From: Acidobacterium sp.
GTDB lineage: Bacteria; Acidobacteriota; Terriglobia; Terriglobales; Acidobacteriaceae
Assembly: GCA_027315385.1 (NCBI GenBank)
Contig: DAHUYD010000164.1
Location: 1-34,872 of the forward strand
Length of the DNA: 34,872 nucleotides
Direction of reading: 5' to 3'
Both the position numbers and the translations under genes were made by a program. The notes beneath the pieces are model-generated. The model had not been told where the DNA came from, searched no databases, and saw nothing but the letters and a program-made list of their open reading frames with translations. Each line of letters begins with the position of its first letter. Position 1 is the first letter of the stretch. Positions 1,628 through 31,437 of this stretch are shown in pieces.

Positions 1628-2368
1628 TTAGCGGGACGCCCGCCGCGGCGCGGCGTCAGCCCTCAGGCGGGCCATCTGGCGCTGGCGGTGGCGCAATTCG
1701 TAGCGGCGGTTGTACTCGTGGATTACCCGCTCCACGTAGGCCCGAGTCTCGGGATACGGAGGGATGCCGTGCCAGCGCTCCACCGCTGCCGGCCCCGCGT
1801 TGTATGCGGCCAGCGCCAACGGCAGGTCGTCGTGGTACCGGATCAGCAGTTCATTCAAATACGCTGTCCCGCCATCGATGTTCTGTACTGGAGCAAAGCT
1901 GTTGGAGACGCCCATTTCCGCGGCGGTGCCCGGCATAAGCTGCATCAGACCTCTCGCCCCCGCTCGGCTCACGGCCCGCGCTCGGCCGTCGCTTTCCTCC
2001 CGGACTACGCTGGCCAGCAGGTCGGCATCTATATCGTAAGCAGCGCTGGCCTGCGCCAGCATGGGGCGCAGATCTTTCTCGGAGAGCCTTTCCGGCGAAG
2101 GTTGCGTGCCCCTCGCCGCCGGGTTCTGCTTTTCGGCGGAAGGCGGTTGGATTGTCTCGATGGAGGCGATCTCCGACGCCTCCACATCCATATAGTTATC
2201 GCCGGAAGCATCCAGATACAGGCGGACTCTACCCGCCTCCGGCACACGGCGGTCGCAGATGAGGTCGAATCCGTTCTTCAGGGTAACGCGCTCCGCGGCG
2301 TGAGCAGCGGCGGCCAAGCACACGAGAACCAGCGCTCGAGACCAGATTTTGCACCATTGCCGCAGCAT
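1628..2368 (-). CDS. Lytic transglycosylase, SLT domain
   Basis: A 246-residue exported murein lytic transglycosylase, expected to cleave the MurNAc-GlcNAc bond of peptidoglycan in the periplasm. Residues 1-24 form a signal peptide ending A-H-A. Residues 25-75 hold a small beta-rich segment that mentions a DUF4124-like fold but is not clearly assignable. The SLT domain spans about 105-225. It contains the catalytic Glu125 in the REES motif, the GARGLMQLMPGTA block (137-149), AYNAGP (188-193) and the ETRAYV motif (207-212). These are the standard signature blocks of family 1 Slt/MltC-type enzymes. The ATG lies six bases downstream of the HAD gene stop, so the two are probably co-transcribed. 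Confidence 0.9.
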   Translation of the reverse strand: MLRQWCKIWSRALVLVCLAAAAHAAERVTLKNGFDLICDRRVPEAGRVRLYLDASGDNYMDVEASEIASIETIQPPSAEKQNPAARGTQPSPERLSEKDLRPMLAQASAAYDIDADLLASVVREESDGRARAVSRAGARGLMQLMPGTAAEMGVSNSFAPVQNIDGGTAYLNELLIRYHDDLPLALAAYNAGPAAVERWHGIPPYPETRAYVERVIHEYNRRYELRHRQRQMARLRADAAPRRASR

Positions 2369-2374
2369 TGACCT

Positions 2375-3262
2375 CTACTCTACCATTCCTGAGACGCGGA
2401 ACCCGGCCAGAACGCTCTCCAGAATCTGGCCTACTCCGTCCTCGTCATTGGAGGCCGCTACGGCCCATCCACGCCGCCGCGCCTCGATCACCAGGTCGGG
2501 AGCGCCATTGGCCATCACGATCGCCCGGCCCGCGGACTCCAGCATCTCCAGATCGTTCCAGTTGTCGCCCATGGCCACAATTTCCTCGCGCGCGATCCCG
2601 CGCTGGCGGGCCAGCCGCCGCAGCGCCGCTCCCTTGGAACAGCCGGGCGGCAGAATGTCGAGGATGGTCAGGTCGCGCGCCTCATACTCGGTACGATGCA
2701 CTGCGATGCGCGGCGCCAGACCGCTCGCGGCAAGCCACTCCTCTGCTCTGCGCATCTCCGCCACCGTACCGCAGACCATTCCCTGAACGGGTTCCTCGCC
2801 GGAATCGAAGGCTCGTTCCAGCGGGCGAACTTCGCGAATGGAATCGCGGTTTGCCTCAACCCAAAGGGCCATCCGCGGGTGCAGCCGCTCGATGCATTCG
2901 AGCACCATCTCCCCGGAACCTTCGCGATCGAAGGTGAAGACTGTGCTGCCCAGCGGCCGCAGAGCGGGGCAAAGAGCTCGCGCGGTTTCTGCCGGCAGCG
3001 TGAAGCGGTCGATCGCAGCGCCGCCCAGCGTCCGCGTGACCGAGCCATTGGAGGTGATCATCACCGTCTCCGGCTTCAGCTCCACCGGCGCCATCAGCGG
3101 GGCGGCATACGCCTGGCGGCGGCCCGTGGCGATCGCGATTTCCAGGCCCGCGGCCTCGGCTTCGCGCAGCGCGCGGATATTGCGGCTGCTGATGCGCGTC
3201 CCGGCTGAGGGCAGCAGCGTGCCGTCAATATCGATGACGAACATCTTTACGGGAGGAGGCAT
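2375..3262 (-). CDS. HAD-superfamily Cof-type phosphatase
   Basis: A 295-residue soluble HAD hydrolase of the Cof/IIB subfamily, which typically dephosphorylates sugar phosphates, phosphoglycolate or flavin nucleotides. Motif I is DIDGTLL with nucleophile Asp11 and Asp13. Motif II is TSNG (70-73). The motif III lysine is in GCSKGAAL near residue 207, and motif IV is GDNWNDLEM near residue 232. The large insert between motifs II and III forms the C2 cap of this subfamily. A GGGAG sequence a few bases upstream supports the ATG at 3262. It sits 33 bases after tadA in the same run. The substrate is not predictable from sequence. Confidence 0.88.
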   Translation of the reverse strand: MPPPVKMFVIDIDGTLLPSAGTRISSRNIRALREAEAAGLEIAIATGRRQAYAAPLMAPVELKPETVMITSNGSVTRTLGGAAIDRFTLPAETARALCPALRPLGSTVFTFDREGSGEMVLECIERLHPRMALWVEANRDSIREVRPLERAFDSGEEPVQGMVCGTVAEMRRAEEWLAASGLAPRIAVHRTEYEARDLTILDILPPGCSKGAALRRLARQRGIAREEIVAMGDNWNDLEMLESAGRAIVMANGAPDLVIEARRRGWAVAASNDEDGVGQILESVLAGFRVSGMVE

Positions 3263-3295
3263 CTGCTCCCAGTGTATTGGATCGCGCCCACCTTC

Positions 3296-3748
3296 TTATC
3301 GCCGCTCGCGGAAGAAGGCGCGCAGCAGGTCCGCGGACTCGTCGGCCAGAATGCCCGCCGTGACCGCCATGATGTGGTTGAGCCGAGGATGATTCAGCAC
3401 TTCAAGGACAGAACCGGCCGCGCCCGCCTTAGGATCCGCCGCGGCGTACACCAGCCGTCCCAGACGCGCGTGAATCATGGCTCCGGCGCACATCGCGCAA
3501 GGCTCCAGCGTCACGTACAGCTCGCAATCCGTAAGCCTATAGTTGCCCACATCCTGGGCAGCAGCACGCAATGCAACCATCTCCGCATGCGCCGTGGGAT
3601 CGCAGTCGCGCAGCACCCGATTCTGCCCCCGCGCCGCGATTTCCCCGCCCATTACCGCAACTGCGCCGATTGGGACTTCGCCCGCTTCGCCAGCCGCTCG
3701 CGCCTCCGCGAGTGCCTCGCCCATCAGGATTTCGTCGGCTTGTGCCAT
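3296..3748 (-). CDS. tadA: tRNA adenosine(34) deaminase TadA
   Basis: A 150-residue zinc-dependent deaminase that converts A34 to inosine in the tRNA-Arg(ACG) wobble position. Both zinc motifs are present: H-A-E at residues 54-56 (zinc ligand His54, proton shuttle Glu56) and P-C-A-M-C at 83-87 (zinc ligands Cys84 and Cys87). The following AGAMIHARLGRLVY segment and the full length match TadA, not cytosine or guanine deaminases. It starts 15 bases after the Imm53-family stop. The gene is normally essential, so its location inside a polyamine operon may simply reflect convenient expression. The guanine deaminase alternative is less likely because the C-terminal region is the short TadA type. 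Confidence 0.93.
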   Translation of the reverse strand: MAQADEILMGEALAEARAAGEAGEVPIGAVAVMGGEIAARGQNRVLRDCDPTAHAEMVALRAAAQDVGNYRLTDCELYVTLEPCAMCAGAMIHARLGRLVYAAADPKAGAAGSVLEVLNHPRLNHIMAVTAGILADESADLLRAFFRERR

Positions 3749-24998: not shown

Positions 24999-26045
24999 TC
25001 AGCCGCCGATGTGGACCATGCTGCGCGAGGGTTTCAGGAAGCCAGGCTCGCCAATGTGGTGGCGCGCTTCCTTCTGGTCGACCGTCCGCCGGATGAACGC
25101 CGCCAGATCGTCATCGCTGCCGCCCCTCTGGAGCACGCCGTAGAGGTCGTGGTCCGTCTGCGAAAACAGGCAGGTGCGAATCTTGCCGTCGGACGTGAGC
25201 CGCACCCGGCTGCAGTGCCCGCAGAAGGCCTGCGTGACCGGCGCGATAATGCCGATCTCGCCCACGCCGTCGTCGAACGTGTAGCGCACCGCCGTTTCGC
25301 TGGCGGCGTTGGGAGCCAGCGGCACCAGCAGCTTAAACGAATTCAGCGCCGTCGTGATCTCCCGCAGCGACACCACTGACTCCGGCGTCCACAGCCGATC
25401 CTCTTCCAGCGGCATGAACTCGATAAACCGGACGATGACGCCCTCCTCGCGCGAAAACTTCGCAAAGGCGACGATCTGGTCCTCGTTGAAGCCGCGGAGC
25501 AGCACGCAGTTTACCTTCACCGGATCGAGCCCGGCCCGTTTCGCCGCGCGAATCCCCGCCAGCACGCGCTGGTAGCTGCCCGGCACCCGCGTGATCCGGG
25601 CGAATTTGTCCGCGTCGACGGCATCCATGCTCACCGTGATCCGACTCAGGCCCGCGGCCCGGAGCGGCTCCGCCATCTCCTCCAGCAGGTGCCCATTTGT
25701 CGTCAGCGCCAGGTCCAGCGGCTCGCCGTCGAGGGTGCGCAGCGCGCTCAGCTCGCGAAGTAGCTGCGGTAATTCGCGGCGCAGCAGCGGCTCGCCGCCC
25801 GTCAGACGAATCTTCTCGATCCCCAGAGCGATGAAGACGCGCGCCATGCGCAGGTATTCCGCGATCGAGAGCTCCGCGTACACCGCGCCGTCGTTCCCCG
25901 TCCGGCAATACACGCACTTGTAGTTGCAGCGGTCGGTGATGGAAATGCGCAGGTCGGTGATCCGGCGGCCATGCCGATCCGTCAGCCGGTCAGACGGCCG
26001 GACGGCAGCATCGGTTTCATTGCGGAGCGCTGGGGTGAGCACCAT
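24999..26045 (-). CDS. moaA: GTP 3',8-cyclase MoaA
   Basis: A 348-residue radical SAM enzyme for the first step of molybdenum cofactor synthesis, converting GTP to 3',8-cyclo-GTP. The N-terminal cluster motif is C-N-Y-K-C-V-Y-C (Cys40, Cys44, Cys47). The second 4Fe-4S cluster ligands are C-G-H-C (275, 278) and Cys292 in G-K-I-R-T-C-L-F. The protein ends in H-I-G-G, the Gly-Gly tail that MoaA needs. Fold elements such as T-G-G-E-P-L-L-R and T-N-G are also present. The ATG at 26045 is preferred; an upstream in-frame start adds 24 residues with no homology. No other mo gene is adjacent, so it stands alone. A 13-base inverted repeat lies just before the start. Confidence 0.93.
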   Translation of the reverse strand: MVLTPALRNETDAAVRPSDRLTDRHGRRITDLRISITDRCNYKCVYCRTGNDGAVYAELSIAEYLRMARVFIALGIEKIRLTGGEPLLRRELPQLLRELSALRTLDGEPLDLALTTNGHLLEEMAEPLRAAGLSRITVSMDAVDADKFARITRVPGSYQRVLAGIRAAKRAGLDPVKVNCVLLRGFNEDQIVAFAKFSREEGVIVRFIEFMPLEEDRLWTPESVVSLREITTALNSFKLLVPLAPNAASETAVRYTFDDGVGEIGIIAPVTQAFCGHCSRVRLTSDGKIRTCLFSQTDHDLYGVLQRGGSDDDLAAFIRRTVDQKEARHHIGEPGFLKPSRSMVHIGG

Positions 26046-26049
26046 GAAT

Positions 26050-26062
26050 GAATACTGTATTC
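26050..26062. promoter_or_regulatory. 13-bp inverted repeat next to the moaA start
   Basis: GAATACTGTATTC is a perfect inverted repeat of six bases on each side of one central base. It ends five bases before the moaA ATG on the minus strand, where a ribosome binding site would be. It could be an operator or a chance palindrome in a locally AT-rich stretch. Confidence 0.35.
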
Positions 26063-26133
26063 GATGCCGCCGGGGCCGCGCCAGACGCACTGTTTTCCCC
26101 CGCGCCCGCCCCACCAATGCCCGGGTCGCTTCG

Positions 26134-26622: not shown

Positions 26623-27675
26623 ATGAGCGAAGAAACGGCGAATACACTGTTCCCGATTCTGGACTCGGAGGCGGCGCGTCCGGTGGGCGTGGCGCGGCTG
26701 GCGGCTGAGGCTGGCGCTGCGGATGCGGGTCGCGATGGGCACGGCGTTGAATTCAGGACGATGGTGACACGCTCGGTGCTGAACCGCGTTGTGTCGAAGC
26801 GGATGCCGTTCTTCAACTGGGGGATCAATCCGTATCGAGGGTGCGAGTTCGGATGCCGCTACTGCTACGCGCGGTATACGCACGAGTTCATGGATAAGCA
26901 GGATCCCTACTTGTTCGAGCGAGAGATTTATATCAAGCAGCAGGCGGCGTGGCTGCTGCGTCAGGAACTGAAGCGGGTGCGGGCGGGCGAGGAGATCGCG
27001 ATCGGAACGGCTACCGACCCTTACCAGCCTGTCGAGCGGCGGGCGCATGCGACGCGAAGCCTGCTGGAGGTGCTGGCGGACCACGAGGGACTGCGGCTGG
27101 GGCTGGTGACCAAATCCACACTGATCGAGCGCGATGTGGAACTGCTGCGGCGGATCGCGCAGCGTAATATTTTGCGGATTTGCGTGACCATCACCACGCC
27201 GGATGCGAAGCTGGCGCGGGTGCTTGAGCCAAGAGCGCCACGACCGGATTTGCGATTCAGGACGGTGGAGCGGCTGCGGGCGGCGGGGCTACGGACCGGG
27301 ATCCTGTGCTCGCCGCTGCTGCCGGGAATCACTGATACGCGCGAGGCGCTCGAGGCAATGGCGCGGCGGGCGCAGAAGGTTAGGGCGAGCTTTTTGGGGG
27401 CGCAGCCGCTGTTTTTGAAGCCATGCTCTCGACCGGTGTTTCTACAGTTCATTCGCGAGCATTTTCCGGCGCTGGAGGCTCAGTATGAGGCGCGGTATCG
27501 GAATCGGGCGTTTGTTCCCAGGGCGTATCACGAGCGCGTAGGGGCGCTGGTGCAGGCGGTGGTGCGGCAGTATGGGCTGGGACAGCGGTTCAGCGCGGGC
27601 GCGCGGAAAGAGCCGCAGCCGGTTTGGCCGGTGCAGGGGGAGTTGTGGGGAAGGGTTGGTAATCAGGATCAGTGA
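26623..27675 (+). CDS. Radical SAM protein of the SPL / Rv2578c family
   Basis: A 350-residue radical SAM protein. The cluster motif is C-E-F-G-C-R-Y-C-Y-A-R (about residues 74-84, a C-x3-C-x2-C), followed by H-E-F. The block A-I-G-T-A-T-D-P-Y-Q-P-V-E and the later T-I-T-T-P-D and P-L-L-P-G-I-T-D are typical of the spore-photoproduct-lyase-like family that includes mycobacterial Rv2578c. Its reaction is unknown to me; despite the name, these non-spore-former members are not shown to repair spore photoproduct. GAGGAG is 12 bases upstream of the ATG, a little far. The cysteine/sulfate genes that follow are separated by 200 bases and have their own leader. Confidence 0.82.
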   Translation: MSEETANTLFPILDSEAARPVGVARLAAEAGAADAGRDGHGVEFRTMVTRSVLNRVVSKRMPFFNWGINPYRGCEFGCRYCYARYTHEFMDKQDPYLFEREIYIKQQAAWLLRQELKRVRAGEEIAIGTATDPYQPVERRAHATRSLLEVLADHEGLRLGLVTKSTLIERDVELLRRIAQRNILRICVTITTPDAKLARVLEPRAPRPDLRFRTVERLRAAGLRTGILCSPLLPGITDTREALEAMARRAQKVRASFLGAQPLFLKPCSRPVFLQFIREHFPALEAQYEARYRNRAFVPRAYHERVGALVQAVVRQYGLGQRFSAGARKEPQPVWPVQGELWGRVGNQDQ

Positions 27676-27716: not shown

Positions 27717-27722
27717 TATGAT
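27717..27722 (+). promoter_or_regulatory. Candidate -10 element before the cys leader and cysD
   Basis: TATGAT is a five-of-six match to the -10 consensus. A good -35 is not seen at 16-18 bases upstream, so an activator may be needed. Initiation would be near 27729, about 12 bases before the leader peptide ATG at 27741. No Shine-Dalgarno sequence precedes that ATG. Confidence 0.4.
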
Positions 27723-27740
27723 GGCGCTACCGAACCTCTG

Positions 27741-27824
27741 ATGGAACCCCACAACGCAAAATGGGCCAGTTGGAGCGGCCAGCTGCCTGAGGAATCCCGC
27801 GCCTGTCGCCGCTGTTGTCGCTAG
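27741..27824 (+). CDS. Cysteine-rich leader peptide of the cysD operon (candidate)
   Basis: A 27-codon ORF with ATG and TAG that ends Ala-Cys-Arg-Arg-Cys-Cys-Arg; three of the last six codons are TGT. The ORF lies 64 bases upstream of cysD, between a TATGAT element and a small hairpin with a T6 run. Cysteine-rich short ORFs upstream of sulfur-assimilation genes are known from actinobacteria as cysteine-responsive attenuators, in which ribosome stalling at Cys codons changes downstream expression. The same logic fits here: low cysteinyl-tRNA would signal need for sulfate activation. It has no Shine-Dalgarno sequence. The call is from composition and position only, and chance is possible because the ORF is short. 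Confidence 0.55.
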   Translation: MEPHNAKWASWSGQLPEESRACRRCCR

Positions 27825-27834
27825 CTCTTCGCGC

Positions 27835-27857
27835 AGCACGCCGTGGCTCTCTTTTTT
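27835..27857 (+). terminator. Possible attenuator hairpin and T6 run before cysD
   Basis: AGCAC (27835-27839) can pair with GTG and CT (27843-27848, one bulged G) around a three-base loop, followed by CTC and TTTTTT (27852-27857). An alternative pairing of GCTGT (27811-27815, inside the leader's Cys codons) with GCAGC (27833-27837) would compete for the same bases. The stem is short, so termination strength is doubtful; the T run between leader and cysD is the firmer observation. Confidence 0.35.
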
Positions 27858-27887
27858 AAATAATCCCAAATTTGCTGGATGGTATGG

Positions 27888-28784
27888 ATGAGCGGGTATC
27901 TCGCCAGTCTGGAAGCAGAGTCTATCGAAATTCTGCGGGAAGCGGTCGCGCTGGCGGAAAAGCCGGTGATGATGTACTCGATCGGCAAGGATTCCTCCGT
28001 GATGCTGCACCTGGCGCGGAAGGCGTTCTGGCCGGCCGCGCCGCCGTTTCCGCTGCTGCACGTGGACACGACCTGGAAATTCCGGGAGATGATCGAATTC
28101 CGGAACCGCATAGCCCGGGAATGCGGGATGAAGCTGCTGGTGCACACGAATCACAAGCGGAAGGCGGAAGGGGTGAACCCGTTCACGTACGATTCGGACA
28201 CCTACACGGGGCTGATGAAGACGGAGGCCCTGAAGCAGGCGCTGGATGAGGGCGGATTCGATCTGATCATCGGCGGGGCGCGGCGCGATGAGGAGAAGTC
28301 GCGAGCCAAAGAGAGGATTTTCTCGTTCCGCTCGCCGGGGCATCGCTGGGATCCCAAACTGCAGCGGCCGGAGCTGTGGAACATCTACAACGCGCGCATT
28401 CATCCGGGCGAATCGATCCGGGTGTTTCCGCTTTCCAACTGGACGGAAGCGGACATCTGGCAGTACATCGCGGCCGAGAACATCGAGATCGTGAAGCTGT
28501 ACTTTGCGGCGATGCGGCCGGTGGTGCGGCGGTCGAACCAGTGGATCATGGTGGACGACGAGCGCATGCCACTCAATCTGGGCGAGACGCCGGAGATGAA
28601 GATGGTGCGGTTCCGGACGCTGGGCTGCTATCCGCTGACGGCGGCGATGGAGAGCACGGCGACAACGATAGCGGAAATTGTGGAAGAGACGCAGACGGCG
28701 CGGACCTCCGAGCGCCAGGGGCGGCTGATCGATCACGATCAGGCGGCTTCGATGGAGAAAAAGAAGGTGGAGGGTTATTTCTGA
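27888..28784 (+). CDS. cysD: Sulfate adenylyltransferase subunit 2
   Basis: A 298-residue catalytic subunit of ATP sulfurylase, which makes adenosine 5'-phosphosulfate (APS) from sulfate and ATP. The PP-loop [15 protein letters not shown] is at about residues 31-45. The blocks [22 protein letters not shown] and R-F-R-T-L-G-C-Y-P are those of CysD, not of PAPS reductase. I chose the ATG at 27888 (GGATGG five bases upstream); the ATG at 27879 is also in frame. The stop overlaps the ATG of cysNC (TGATG), so the two subunits are made in a coupled way. Confidence 0.95.
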
Positions 28785-30637
28785 TGGGGGACGTGCTGCG
28801 GTTTATCACCTGCGGGAGCGTGGACGATGGGAAGTCGACGCTGATCGGGCGGCTGCTATGGGAATCGAAGCAGGTGTTCGAGGATCATCTGTCGGCACTG
28901 GAGCGGGACTCGACGCGCTACGGAACACAGGGGGATGCGATCGACTTCGCGCTGCTGGTGGACGGGCTGCAGTCGGAGCGCGAGCAGAGCATCACGATCG
29001 ATGTTGCTTACCGCTTCTTCGCGACGCCGCGGCGGCGGTTTATCGTAGCGGACACGCCCGGCCACGAACAGTACACGCGCAACATGGCGACGGGAGCGTC
29101 TACGTCGGAACTGGCGGTGCTGGTGGTGAACGCGGGCAAGGGATTGCAGGTGCAGACGCACCGGCACGCGCGGATCGTATCGTTGCTGGGCATTCGCCAC
29201 CTGGCGATGGCTATCAACAAGATGGACCTGGTGGACTGGGACCAGGAGGTTTTCGACCGCATCGTGGAGGAGTTCCGGCCGGTGGTGCGGGAACTGGGGT
29301 TCCAGTCGTTCCAGCCGATTCCGGTGTCGGCGCTGAACGGGGACAACATCACGGAGAGCAGCGCTGCGGCGCCCTGGTACAAGGGGCCGACGCTGCTGAA
29401 TTATCTGGAAGAGGTGGATGCGACCACGGATGTGCCGGATCTGAAGTTCCGGATGGCGGTGCAGCTGGTGAATCGCCCAACGCACGATTTCCGGGGCTAC
29501 TGCGGGCGTATCGCCAGCGGGCAAGTGAAAGCGGGGGACCGCGTGCGGGTGGTTCCGGGCGGACAGGAGACGAAAATCCGGTCGATCGTTGCGTGGCAGT
29601 CGGAGCTTCCGTCGGCGAGTGCGGGGGAATCCGTGACGCTGTGCCTGGCGGATGAGGTGGACGTGTCGCGGGGCAGCGTGCTGTCGACGGCGGGCGATCC
29701 GGTGGACTTGAGCGACCAGTTCGAGGCGCGGGTGATCTGTCTTTCCGGCCATCATCTGGTGGCGGGACGCTCGTATCTGATGAATCTGCATACCGCGCAG
29801 GCGGTGGCGACCATCACCGCGATCAAGCATCGGGTGGACGCGCGCACGGGGAGCCATGAGGCGGCCAGGGCGCTGGAGATGAACGATATCGGCGTGGTGA
29901 ATGTGTCGACGGATCGGGCGGTGCCGTTCGAGCCGTACGAACGCTGCCGGCGGCTGGGAAGCTTCATTCTGGTGGATCGGATCACAAACGAGACCGTGGG
30001 CGCGGGGATGGTGGACTTTTCGCTGCGGCGGGCGGCGAACATCCACTGGCAGCACGTGGATATCAATAAGCAGGCGCGGGCGGAGCAGAAGCTGCAGAAG
30101 CCCGTGTGCCTGTGGTTCACGGGACTGTCCGCGTCGGGGAAATCGACGATTGCGAATTTGCTGGAGAAGCGGGTGTTTGCGGCGGGGAAGCACACTTACA
30201 TGCTGGACGGAGACAACGTGCGGCACGGGCTGAATCGGGATCTGGGGTTCACGGAGGCTGATCGGACGGAGAATATCCGGCGCGTGACGGAAGTGGCGAG
30301 GCTGATGGTGGATGCGGGACTGGTGACGATTGTTTCGTTCATCAGTCCGTACCGGGCGGAGCGGGAACTGGCGCGCTCGCGGTTTGAGGCGGGCGAGTTC
30401 ATCGAGGTATTTGTAGACACTCCGCTGGAGATCTGCGAGCAGCGCGATCCCAAGGGGTTGTACGCGAAGGCGCGCCGCGGGGACCTGAAGAATTTCACAG
30501 GGATCGACAGCGATTACGAGCCGCCCGTCTCGCCGGAGGTCCACCTGCGAACGGCGAGCGAACCGGTAGAACAATGCGTGGATCGAATCCTGCAGATGCT
30601 TGAACAGGCGGGAAAGCGCGAGGAGAAAGCACAGTGA
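28784..30637 (+). CDS. cysNC: Bifunctional sulfate adenylyltransferase subunit 1 / APS kinase
   Basis: A 617-residue fusion. The N-terminal part (about 1-430) is the CysN GTPase that drives ATP sulfurylase: [10 protein letters not shown] (11-20), [12 protein letters not shown] and N-K-M-D-L-V-D-W. It is followed by the elongation-factor-like beta-barrel domains. The C-terminal part (about 440-617) is APS kinase, which phosphorylates APS to PAPS: P-loop G-L-S-A-S-G-K-S-T (447-455), [11 protein letters not shown], and G-L-Y-A-K-A-R-R-G. The same fusion is known as NodQ in rhizobia and as CysNC elsewhere. The start overlaps the cysD stop, and the stop overlaps the cysQ start. No nodulation genes are near, so this is a general sulfate activation role. 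Confidence 0.95.
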
Positions 30638-31437
30638 GCGGAACCAGCGATGCCGGCGAGGAGAAGGGCTTGCGCGAACTTCTGCCGCGGGTGGTTGAGA
30701 TCGCGCGCCAGGCGGGCGGGAAGATCATGCGGTTGTACGCCGAGGTGAATCCCGCGGTCGAATACAAGCGGGACAATTCTCCGCTGACGCAGGCGGATCT
30801 GGCTTCTCATCGCGTGATCGACGAGGAGTTAACGCGCATTGCGCCGGAGTGGCCCGTGCTGTCGGAGGAGTCGAAGGAGATTCCCTTCGATCAGCGCCGC
30901 GGGTGGCAGCGGTTCTGGCTGGTCGATCCGCTGGACGGGACGAAAGAATTCCTGAAGCGCAACGGCGAGTTCACAGTGAACATCGCGCTGATGGAAGAGG
31001 GGCGGCCAATTCTGGGCGTGGTTTACGCGCCCGCGATGGATCGGATGTACTACGCGGCACGCGGCGCCGGGGCATGGAAGGCGGAGGGCGGAGCCGTCGC
31101 GGCGATTCGGATCGGGCGGGCGGAACACGGGAGGATCCGCGTGGTGACGAGCCGCTCGCACGCGTCCAGGGAGGATAACCTGTCCCCATACACGGGCGGA
31201 GACGCGGCTTGCGACTTCGTCACGATGGGCAGCTCGCTGAAGTTCTGCCTGGTGGCAGAAGGGGCGGCGGATGTGTATCCGCGCACGGGGCCGACGATGG
31301 AGTGGGACACGGCGGCGGCGCAGTGCGTGGTGGAACAGGCGGGCGGGACGGTGACGGATCTCGAGGGCAATCCGATGAGTTACAACAAGGCGGTGCTGCT
31401 GAATCCGGGGTTTGTGGCGCGGGGTGAAGCGAAGTAA
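30634..31437 (+). CDS. cysQ: 3'(2'),5'-bisphosphate nucleotidase CysQ
   Basis: A 267-residue Mg-dependent, inositol-monophosphatase-fold enzyme that hydrolyses PAP to AMP, and may also act on PAPS, so it removes the by-product of sulfotransfer. The metal-binding residues are in E-E-S-K-E (78-82) and D-P-L-D-G-T-K-E-F (98-106), and the last block is [12 protein letters not shown] (about 223-234). The GTG start overlaps the cysNC stop by four bases. Position and coupling fit a role in sulfate activation. An inositol monophosphatase is less likely because the sequence pattern [13 protein letters not shown] is that of CysQ. Confidence 0.93.

Follow-up and report, generated by a model that had tools for sequence, protein, structure and literature searches.

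The 27-codon open reading frame (ORF) at 27741–27824 of the window (the whole stretch of DNA that was analysed, 34,872 nt from a soil acidobacterium) is predicted to be a cysteine-responsive attenuator of the cysD-cysNC-cysQ genes. A probability of roughly 0.84 was assigned to this reading, which covers the cysteine-responsive attenuator and not the Rho step considered below. The support comes from comparison: two relatives keep the leader, its Cys/stop end has resisted drift, and leaders recur at sulfur-assimilation genes. Judging from the sequence, low cysteine very probably turns the sulfate-activation genes on. The comparison supports the original prediction of a cysteine-sensing leader for sulfate activation outside Actinobacteria, but not the hairpin mechanism proposed with it. 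The features of the locus are as follows.

26623–27675, plus strand: radical SAM gene (Pfam PF04055), 5' of the leader.
27717–27722, plus strand: TATGAT, a -10-like box read in the sequence and present in both leader-bearing relatives.
27741–27824, plus strand: 27-codon leader ORF, MEPHNAKWASWSGQLPEESRACRRCCR*, exact in the sequence; length and Cys/stop end kept in genomes G003 and G006.
27804–27821, plus strand: candidate sensor codons TGT CGC CGC TGT TGT CGC (Cys-Arg-Arg-Cys-Cys-Arg), abutting the TAG.
27805–27847, plus strand: possible hairpin in which the Cys codons are paired with downstream bases (-18 kcal/mol); not conserved.
27825–27854, plus strand: C-rich tract directly 3' of the leader stop (12 C and 7 G of 30); candidate Rho-loading site.
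27829–27846, plus strand: weak terminator-like site of 5 pairs.
27852–27857, plus strand: T6 run; the two relatives have a run rich in pyrimidines at roughly this position.
27877–27882, plus strand: GGATGG, likely Shine-Dalgarno (SD) sequence of cysD; identical in 3/3.
27888–28784, plus strand: cysD (sulfate adenylyltransferase subunit 2; Pfam PF01507); the ORF is listed from 27879.
28376–30637, plus strand: cysNC (GTPase + APS kinase; Pfam PF00009 and PF01583), in listed ORF coordinates with the start as listed.
30634–31437, plus strand: cysQ-like gene (inositol monophosphatase family; Pfam PF00459).

The ORF was found exactly as first described. It ends Ala-Cys-Arg-Arg-Cys-Cys-Arg-stop, with TGT codons at 27804, 27813 and 27816 and a TAG stop, and it is unique in the window among ATG ORFs of 15–60 codons with at least three Cys among the last six residues (34,872 nt, both strands). 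The TATGAT and the T6 run are both present; a sigma-70 consensus scan returned no promoter-like site. The order ORF, cysD, cysNC and cysQ-like gene is supported by Pfam. The start of cysD is likely to be the ATGAGC at 27888, which is common to the relatives, rather than the listed 27879. A MoaA-like gene (radical SAM + Mob_synth_C) lies at 24999–26117 on the minus strand, near the radical SAM gene 5' of the leader. At the gathering score, no Rfam family was matched in the window and only four tRNAs were matched across 18 related loci.

CysD proteins at least 80% identical to that of the window were found in 6 of the 398 genomes of the family sample (G000, which is the genome of the window, G003, G006, G008, G019 and G232). 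G003 and G006, of the same genus, each carry a 27-codon leader at the same syntenic place (MKACHAKRAGSSGHLIEKPFFCCCGCR and MNSWYTNGLTLSAFLIAKARACCRGCR). Cys22, Cys26, Arg27, the TAG and the ORF length are identical in the three genomes sharing the radical SAM-cysD locus. Among the three leaders, nucleotide identity is 53–63% over codons 2–21, with no third-position excess of changes, and 81–95% over codons 22–27 and the stop. A Cys/stop end held while the remainder drifts is the pattern expected of a sensor leader. The radical SAM neighbour was looked for by tblastn at five loci; it was detected at those of both leader-bearing relatives (L083, 83%; L084, 89%), with no hit at L085, L086 and L116.

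The check proposed with the original prediction, a comparison of cysD upstream regions in related genomes, returned a Cys-rich ORF of the same length in two genomes and no recognisable leader in the three others with this cysD type. In G008 (CysD 89%), cysD lies behind an unrelated 303-codon ORF. In G019 and G232 (CysD 80–81%), Cys ORFs were flagged 320–420 nt upstream and were judged to be chance occurrences. The window-type leader is known from three sequences of one genus. When its pattern was searched in 12 genus genomes, zero-mismatch matches occurred at the three known cysD loci only. Allowing up to two mismatches gave 45 matches versus 94 for a reversed control, and following up two of the two-mismatch matches happened to reveal other Cys leaders, one ahead of a PF03601 gene in G007 and one ahead of a ThiS gene in G003.

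The window CysD shares 67–74% identity with 79 other named records (most of them proteobacterial; one, L070 at 70%, acidobacterial) and, among the matches listed, 56–62% with the CysD usual in its family. This greater closeness to the proteobacterial proteins suggests that the gene was gained horizontally. A second, native cysD was not found in G000, G003 or G006 (drafts 88–99% complete).

Cysteine-rich short ORFs (8–60 codons, at least three Cys within some 10 residues) were found in 72 of 93 regions upstream of cysD; the regions reached up to 420 nt, and almost all were acidobacterial. Controls on the same 93 regions gave 18 on the antisense strand and 8–22 in 20 shuffles; mostly proteobacterial control cysD regions, from the named-record scan, gave 8 of 77. 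The 93 regions include 79 from one family (f1). Near-duplicates were kept (L002 = L084; others with identical leaders), L156 (88 nt) was dropped, L052 (40 nt) was skipped and L006 was counted in both the 93 and the 77. By hand mapping, 67 of the 79 f1 loci had a match, or 61 once six doubtful ones were set aside, in 16 of 22 genera. The usual cysD of f1, only 56–62% identical to the window type, is likewise preceded by cysteine leaders. Outside f1, Cys ORFs were patchy and near the shuffle rate (6/30 phylum loci); two or three of these six were judged to be real. Counts over leaders include related sequences and so are not independent. At L091 (G029), a Cys-rich tail, GAGVCRAMCCCAGAHTRPRRYR*, lies in frame on the end of an ORF, about 105–190 nt before the cysD match at 842. 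The ORF carrying it, directly before cysD, is ThiS/MoaD-like by eye, as if a sulfur-carrier gene bore the leader as its 3' end. At L136, L153, L132 and L138, the opposite strand carries a tRNA gene some 400 bases ahead of the cysD match.

Codon use and starts were then compared. TGT accounts for 277 of the 374 Cys codons of the leaders versus 8 of 131 in the cysD stretches of those loci, and is rare in seven ORFs of the window (3/34 Cys codons). The start test was performed on the 39 leaders with a single in-frame ATG, from 65 left after removals. A TANNNT box ends 5–12 nt before the ATG in 35 of the 39, where two control offsets gave 0 and 5; an SD-like motif is present in 2. With this spacing and so few SD motifs, most family leaders look leaderless or nearly so. 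In the window type, 17–23 nt separate the box from the ATG; the window leader itself, with its ATG 18 nt past the -10-like box and no SD-like motif, does not look leaderless.

Other Cys leaders occur in the same genome and genus. The second leader of the window's genome, MSFCPRLVAARVCCCTLRRPCG*, has a conserved terminator; some 240 nt separate this leader from a cysH-like gene of the PAPS-reductase family downstream. It is located at 2321–2253 of L112 (G000:C107), minus strand, with the terminator extending to about 2190, and has counterparts in G003 and G006. A further short ORF, translated by eye as VKDQTVASKRAIQRARCSVARAFWHPERRHRRSSHHV*, is seen at 2160–2047 on the minus strand of L112, in the interval from this terminator to the cysH-like gene; ORF starts resembling it are visible in L111 and L113. 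The third leader, MVLISPSGRLSAHSTGARCCCCWA*, precedes a ThiS-family CysO-like gene (L319, upstream of 1501; G000:C137), which is followed on C137 by a ThiF-rhodanese gene. Counterparts of MVLISPSGRLSAHSTGARCCCCWA* were found in G003, G006 and G009, with a more distant one in G011 and a Cys-poor version in G007; none was seen in G002 or G008. Cys leaders precede sulfite-reductase (NIR_SIR) genes in 11 of 12 genus genomes, the G000 contig ending short of the place. Over 17 genomes, 15 of the 23 NIR_SIR loci scanned had a Cys ORF match and 13 were judged to be leaders. A Cys ORF was also found before a PF03601 transporter-family gene at three of eight loci scanned (L328 in G007, L329 in G002 and L330 in G009), with none before the PF03601 gene of G000; these ORFs hint at sulfur transport.

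On predicted pairing, the genus leaders before cysI, cysH and the native cysD are textbook attenuators. Eleven of them were aligned (alignment A1). All contain TGTTGTTG, followed by a terminator and a U run, and the last Cys codon lies inside CTTGTGGG, able to pair with CCCATAAG at the 5' arm of the terminator. In A1, 97.4% of terminator cells are paired, through conservation and without two-sided changes. For the antiterminator the value is 88.6%, with two pairs changed on both sides, and falls to 24–51% when the pairing is slid. A covariance model of A1, scored on 150 of 2,309–3,521 candidates per genome, gave at least 18 strong matches in 12/12 genus genomes. Eleven were its own sequences and seven were new, before six NIR_SIR genes and one PAPS-reductase gene. 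Over the 18 sequences, in an alignment fitted to the terminator, 238 of 252 terminator cells are paired and two pairs show changes on both sides; for the antiterminator, 119 of 144 cells are paired, versus 50–70 when slid. The attenuator model (R1), searched against 21 sources, had no match at E 0.01 in the window, L083 or L084. As predicted from sequence, the mutually exclusive terminator and antiterminator were recognised in other genus leaders and not in the window leader.

For the read-out of the window leader, the favoured conjecture, at a little under even odds, is that Rho terminates transcription past the leader stop; it arose post hoc, from looking at the data. A C-rich, G-poor tract at the leader stop suits Rho. 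For the terminator and composition tests, the 72 leaders were reduced to 64 by removing eight (duplicates L002 and L121; L086, L100, L102, L116 and L166, judged to be chance; and L091, fused to a coding gene). A scan requiring at least 6 pairs found intrinsic terminators in 11 of the 64, versus 1.35 expected. For composition, L098 (terminator seen in A1 and missed by the scan) was moved into this group and L147 (judged false) out of it, giving 11 leaders with and 53 without a recognised terminator. In the 53, the first 30 nt past the stop contain 37% C and 13% G, with C exceeding G in 51. No such skew was found in 21 cysD regions lacking a leader, and regions before the leader are near parity. 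The last Cys is at most five codons from the stop in 51 of the 53 versus 5 of the 11 with a terminator, and a Rho gene is present in the three genomes searched. The window tract itself has a modest C excess (12 C versus 7 G of 30). The excess peaks at the stop and is weaker toward cysD (C>G in 37/51, 33/50, 28/42 and 23/31 in the next four 30-nt steps), with C>G in 45/53 at -60 to -31 before the cysD match; as it continues toward cysD, it may be a feature that such leaders have in general. In L119, L127 and L142, more than 10 codons separate the main Cys cluster from the stop, so a stalled ribosome would not cover the tract.

The read-out may instead be translational, through a hairpin terminator, or something else. 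In translation attenuation, the leader region would keep the ribosome-binding site of cysD masked until stalling at the Cys codons exposes it. The closest tested precedent, in the passages cited from PMC13236596 and PMC9031893, is that of the mycobacterial cysteine uORFs, and the near-leaderless starts of the family (35/39) are as in mycobacteria. This read-out is nevertheless unlikely. With a ribosome placed on the Cys codons, the computed accessibility of the cysD start changed from 0.33 to 0.29, from 0.39 to 0.36–0.42 and from 0.28 to 0.28 in the only three sequences modelled; with the ribosome masked at codon 10, it rose somewhat (0.45, 0.50 and 0.31). None of the three showed a clear gain with the ribosome on the Cys codons, so the proposed freeing of the cysD site was not seen in this computation. 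Base pairing between the C-rich tract and the SD of cysD was rejected: in 52 leaders no notable pairing was found, the post-stop tract pairing with the SD no better than shuffled tracts do (mean z +0.17) and only slightly better than with other windows (lower in 28/46).

Classical attenuation would have the Cys codons and downstream bases form an intrinsic terminator at the T6 run, which a stalled ribosome blocks. The -18 kcal/mol hairpin adjoins the T6, the weak 5-pair site is listed there, and the same principle is predicted in the genus at cysI, cysH and the native cysD. The alternative pairing through the Cys codons does exist, but its energy was equalled or bettered in 62 of 200 shuffles, and the equivalent folds of the two relatives fared worse (147/200 and 188/200 shuffles as good). 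The terminator-like site has five pairs, and the two relatives have no comparable terminator; the scan found none of at least 6 pairs in the three sequences. With a fold like that of shuffles, no conservation and no scan or R1 match, an intrinsic terminator for the window leader was rejected, which makes classical attenuation improbable here.

A functional small Cys-Arg peptide, binding for instance a thiol or a metal, would account for the C-terminal CxxxCR that is identical in 3/3. It is very improbable as an alternative to a regulatory leader, because the remainder drifts without third-position bias, the family leaders share Cys codons and no common peptide by eye, TGT, rare in genes, is favoured, and leaders precede sulfur genes. 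A chance ORF with no role, as its shortness, the Cys ORFs in 8–22 of 93 shuffled regions and its absence from three of the six genomes with this cysD type might suggest, is scarcely credible against an end kept in three genomes, 72 of 93 regions with a Cys ORF and its uniqueness in the window.

The cysteine-responsive attenuator would then work as follows. Translation of the leader would begin after a short 5' stretch in which no ribosome-binding site is evident. With ample Cys-tRNA, the ribosome would pass the three TGT codons, end at the TAG and depart. With scarce Cys-tRNA, it would stall on the last six codons, beside the stop, and this stall would increase cysD-cysNC-cysQ expression. Tentatively, the parked ribosome would cover a C-rich, G-poor tract otherwise loading Rho, as at TnaC.

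More broadly, it is conceivable, if on balance doubtful, that Acidobacteria possess a sulfur-to-cysteine regulon (cysD-N-C, cysH, cysI, the CysO-like carrier and the PF03601 family) under leaders sensing Cys-tRNA through rare TGT codons. The read-out, per gene, would be an intrinsic terminator or a Rho tract covered at the stop (a mirror-image TnaC), and a cysD operon that arrived by horizontal transfer, like the one in the window, would have gained a leader anew. If this is true, sulfur-assimilation control could be predicted from sequence in a large, mostly uncultured soil phylum, with cysteine leaders marking the genes. The likeness to mycobacteria in another phylum (Cys-run ORFs, near-leaderless starts, sulfur genes) would be repeated evolution, and the terminator and non-terminator versions inside one genus would make the exchange of read-outs a testable question.

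Cysteine leaders are a known device that seems to be undescribed in the phylum Acidobacteria. In the parts of the literature cited, they are described in Actinobacteria, mainly mycobacteria (PMC9031893, PMC9094748, PMC13236596, PMC1262725), and before cysS in Rhodobacterales (PMC8632094). Short leader genes of Acidobacteria are counted generally in PMC4833913, with cysteine unmentioned in the passages cited. No report of an acidobacterial cysteine leader was found in the titles, abstract openings and passages covered, most subscription papers being outside this coverage.

The polycysteine leaderless short ORFs of mycobacteria (Canestrari et al. 2020, Mol Microbiol 114:93, as cited in PMC9031893, PMC9094748 and PMC13236596) resemble the present leaders, as described there, in being short Cys-run ORFs before cysteine genes with a predicted cysteine response. 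Most acidobacterial leaders tested likewise look leaderless or nearly so, whereas the window leader does not. They also differ in their phylum, in the intrinsic terminators used by many genus members and, for the window leader, in showing no in silico ribosome-binding-site release (three sequences). An origin independent from the actinobacterial leaders is plausible. Seliverstov et al. 2005 (PMC1262725), in the passages cited, described Cys leaders before cys operons of Mycobacterium and P. acnes and before cbs of B. longum, and proposed Rho-dependent, tna-like control, a Rho prediction that the authors call rather weak. Those leaders share with ours stop-proximal Cys codons, no conserved terminator and pyrimidine-rich stretches up to the operon, but they are actinobacterial, and the C excess at the leader stop (51/53) is what sets the acidobacterial leaders apart from that account. 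The uORFC-8-2 motif before cysS in Rhodobacterales, for which cysteine attenuation via the ribosome was proposed, likewise places Cys codons in tandem within a short ORF, together with a terminator-like stem and a U run; unlike the window leader, it is, in the cited description, a structured motif before a cysteinyl-tRNA synthetase gene in Alphaproteobacteria (PMC8632094). As at E. coli tnaC in the account cited (PMC8429421), a ribosome at the leader end is proposed here to cover a rut site right after the stop. TnaC stalls at high free tryptophan, whereas here scarce Cys-tRNA would cause the stall, so that the logic would be opposite to that of TnaC and an arrest peptide would be unnecessary.
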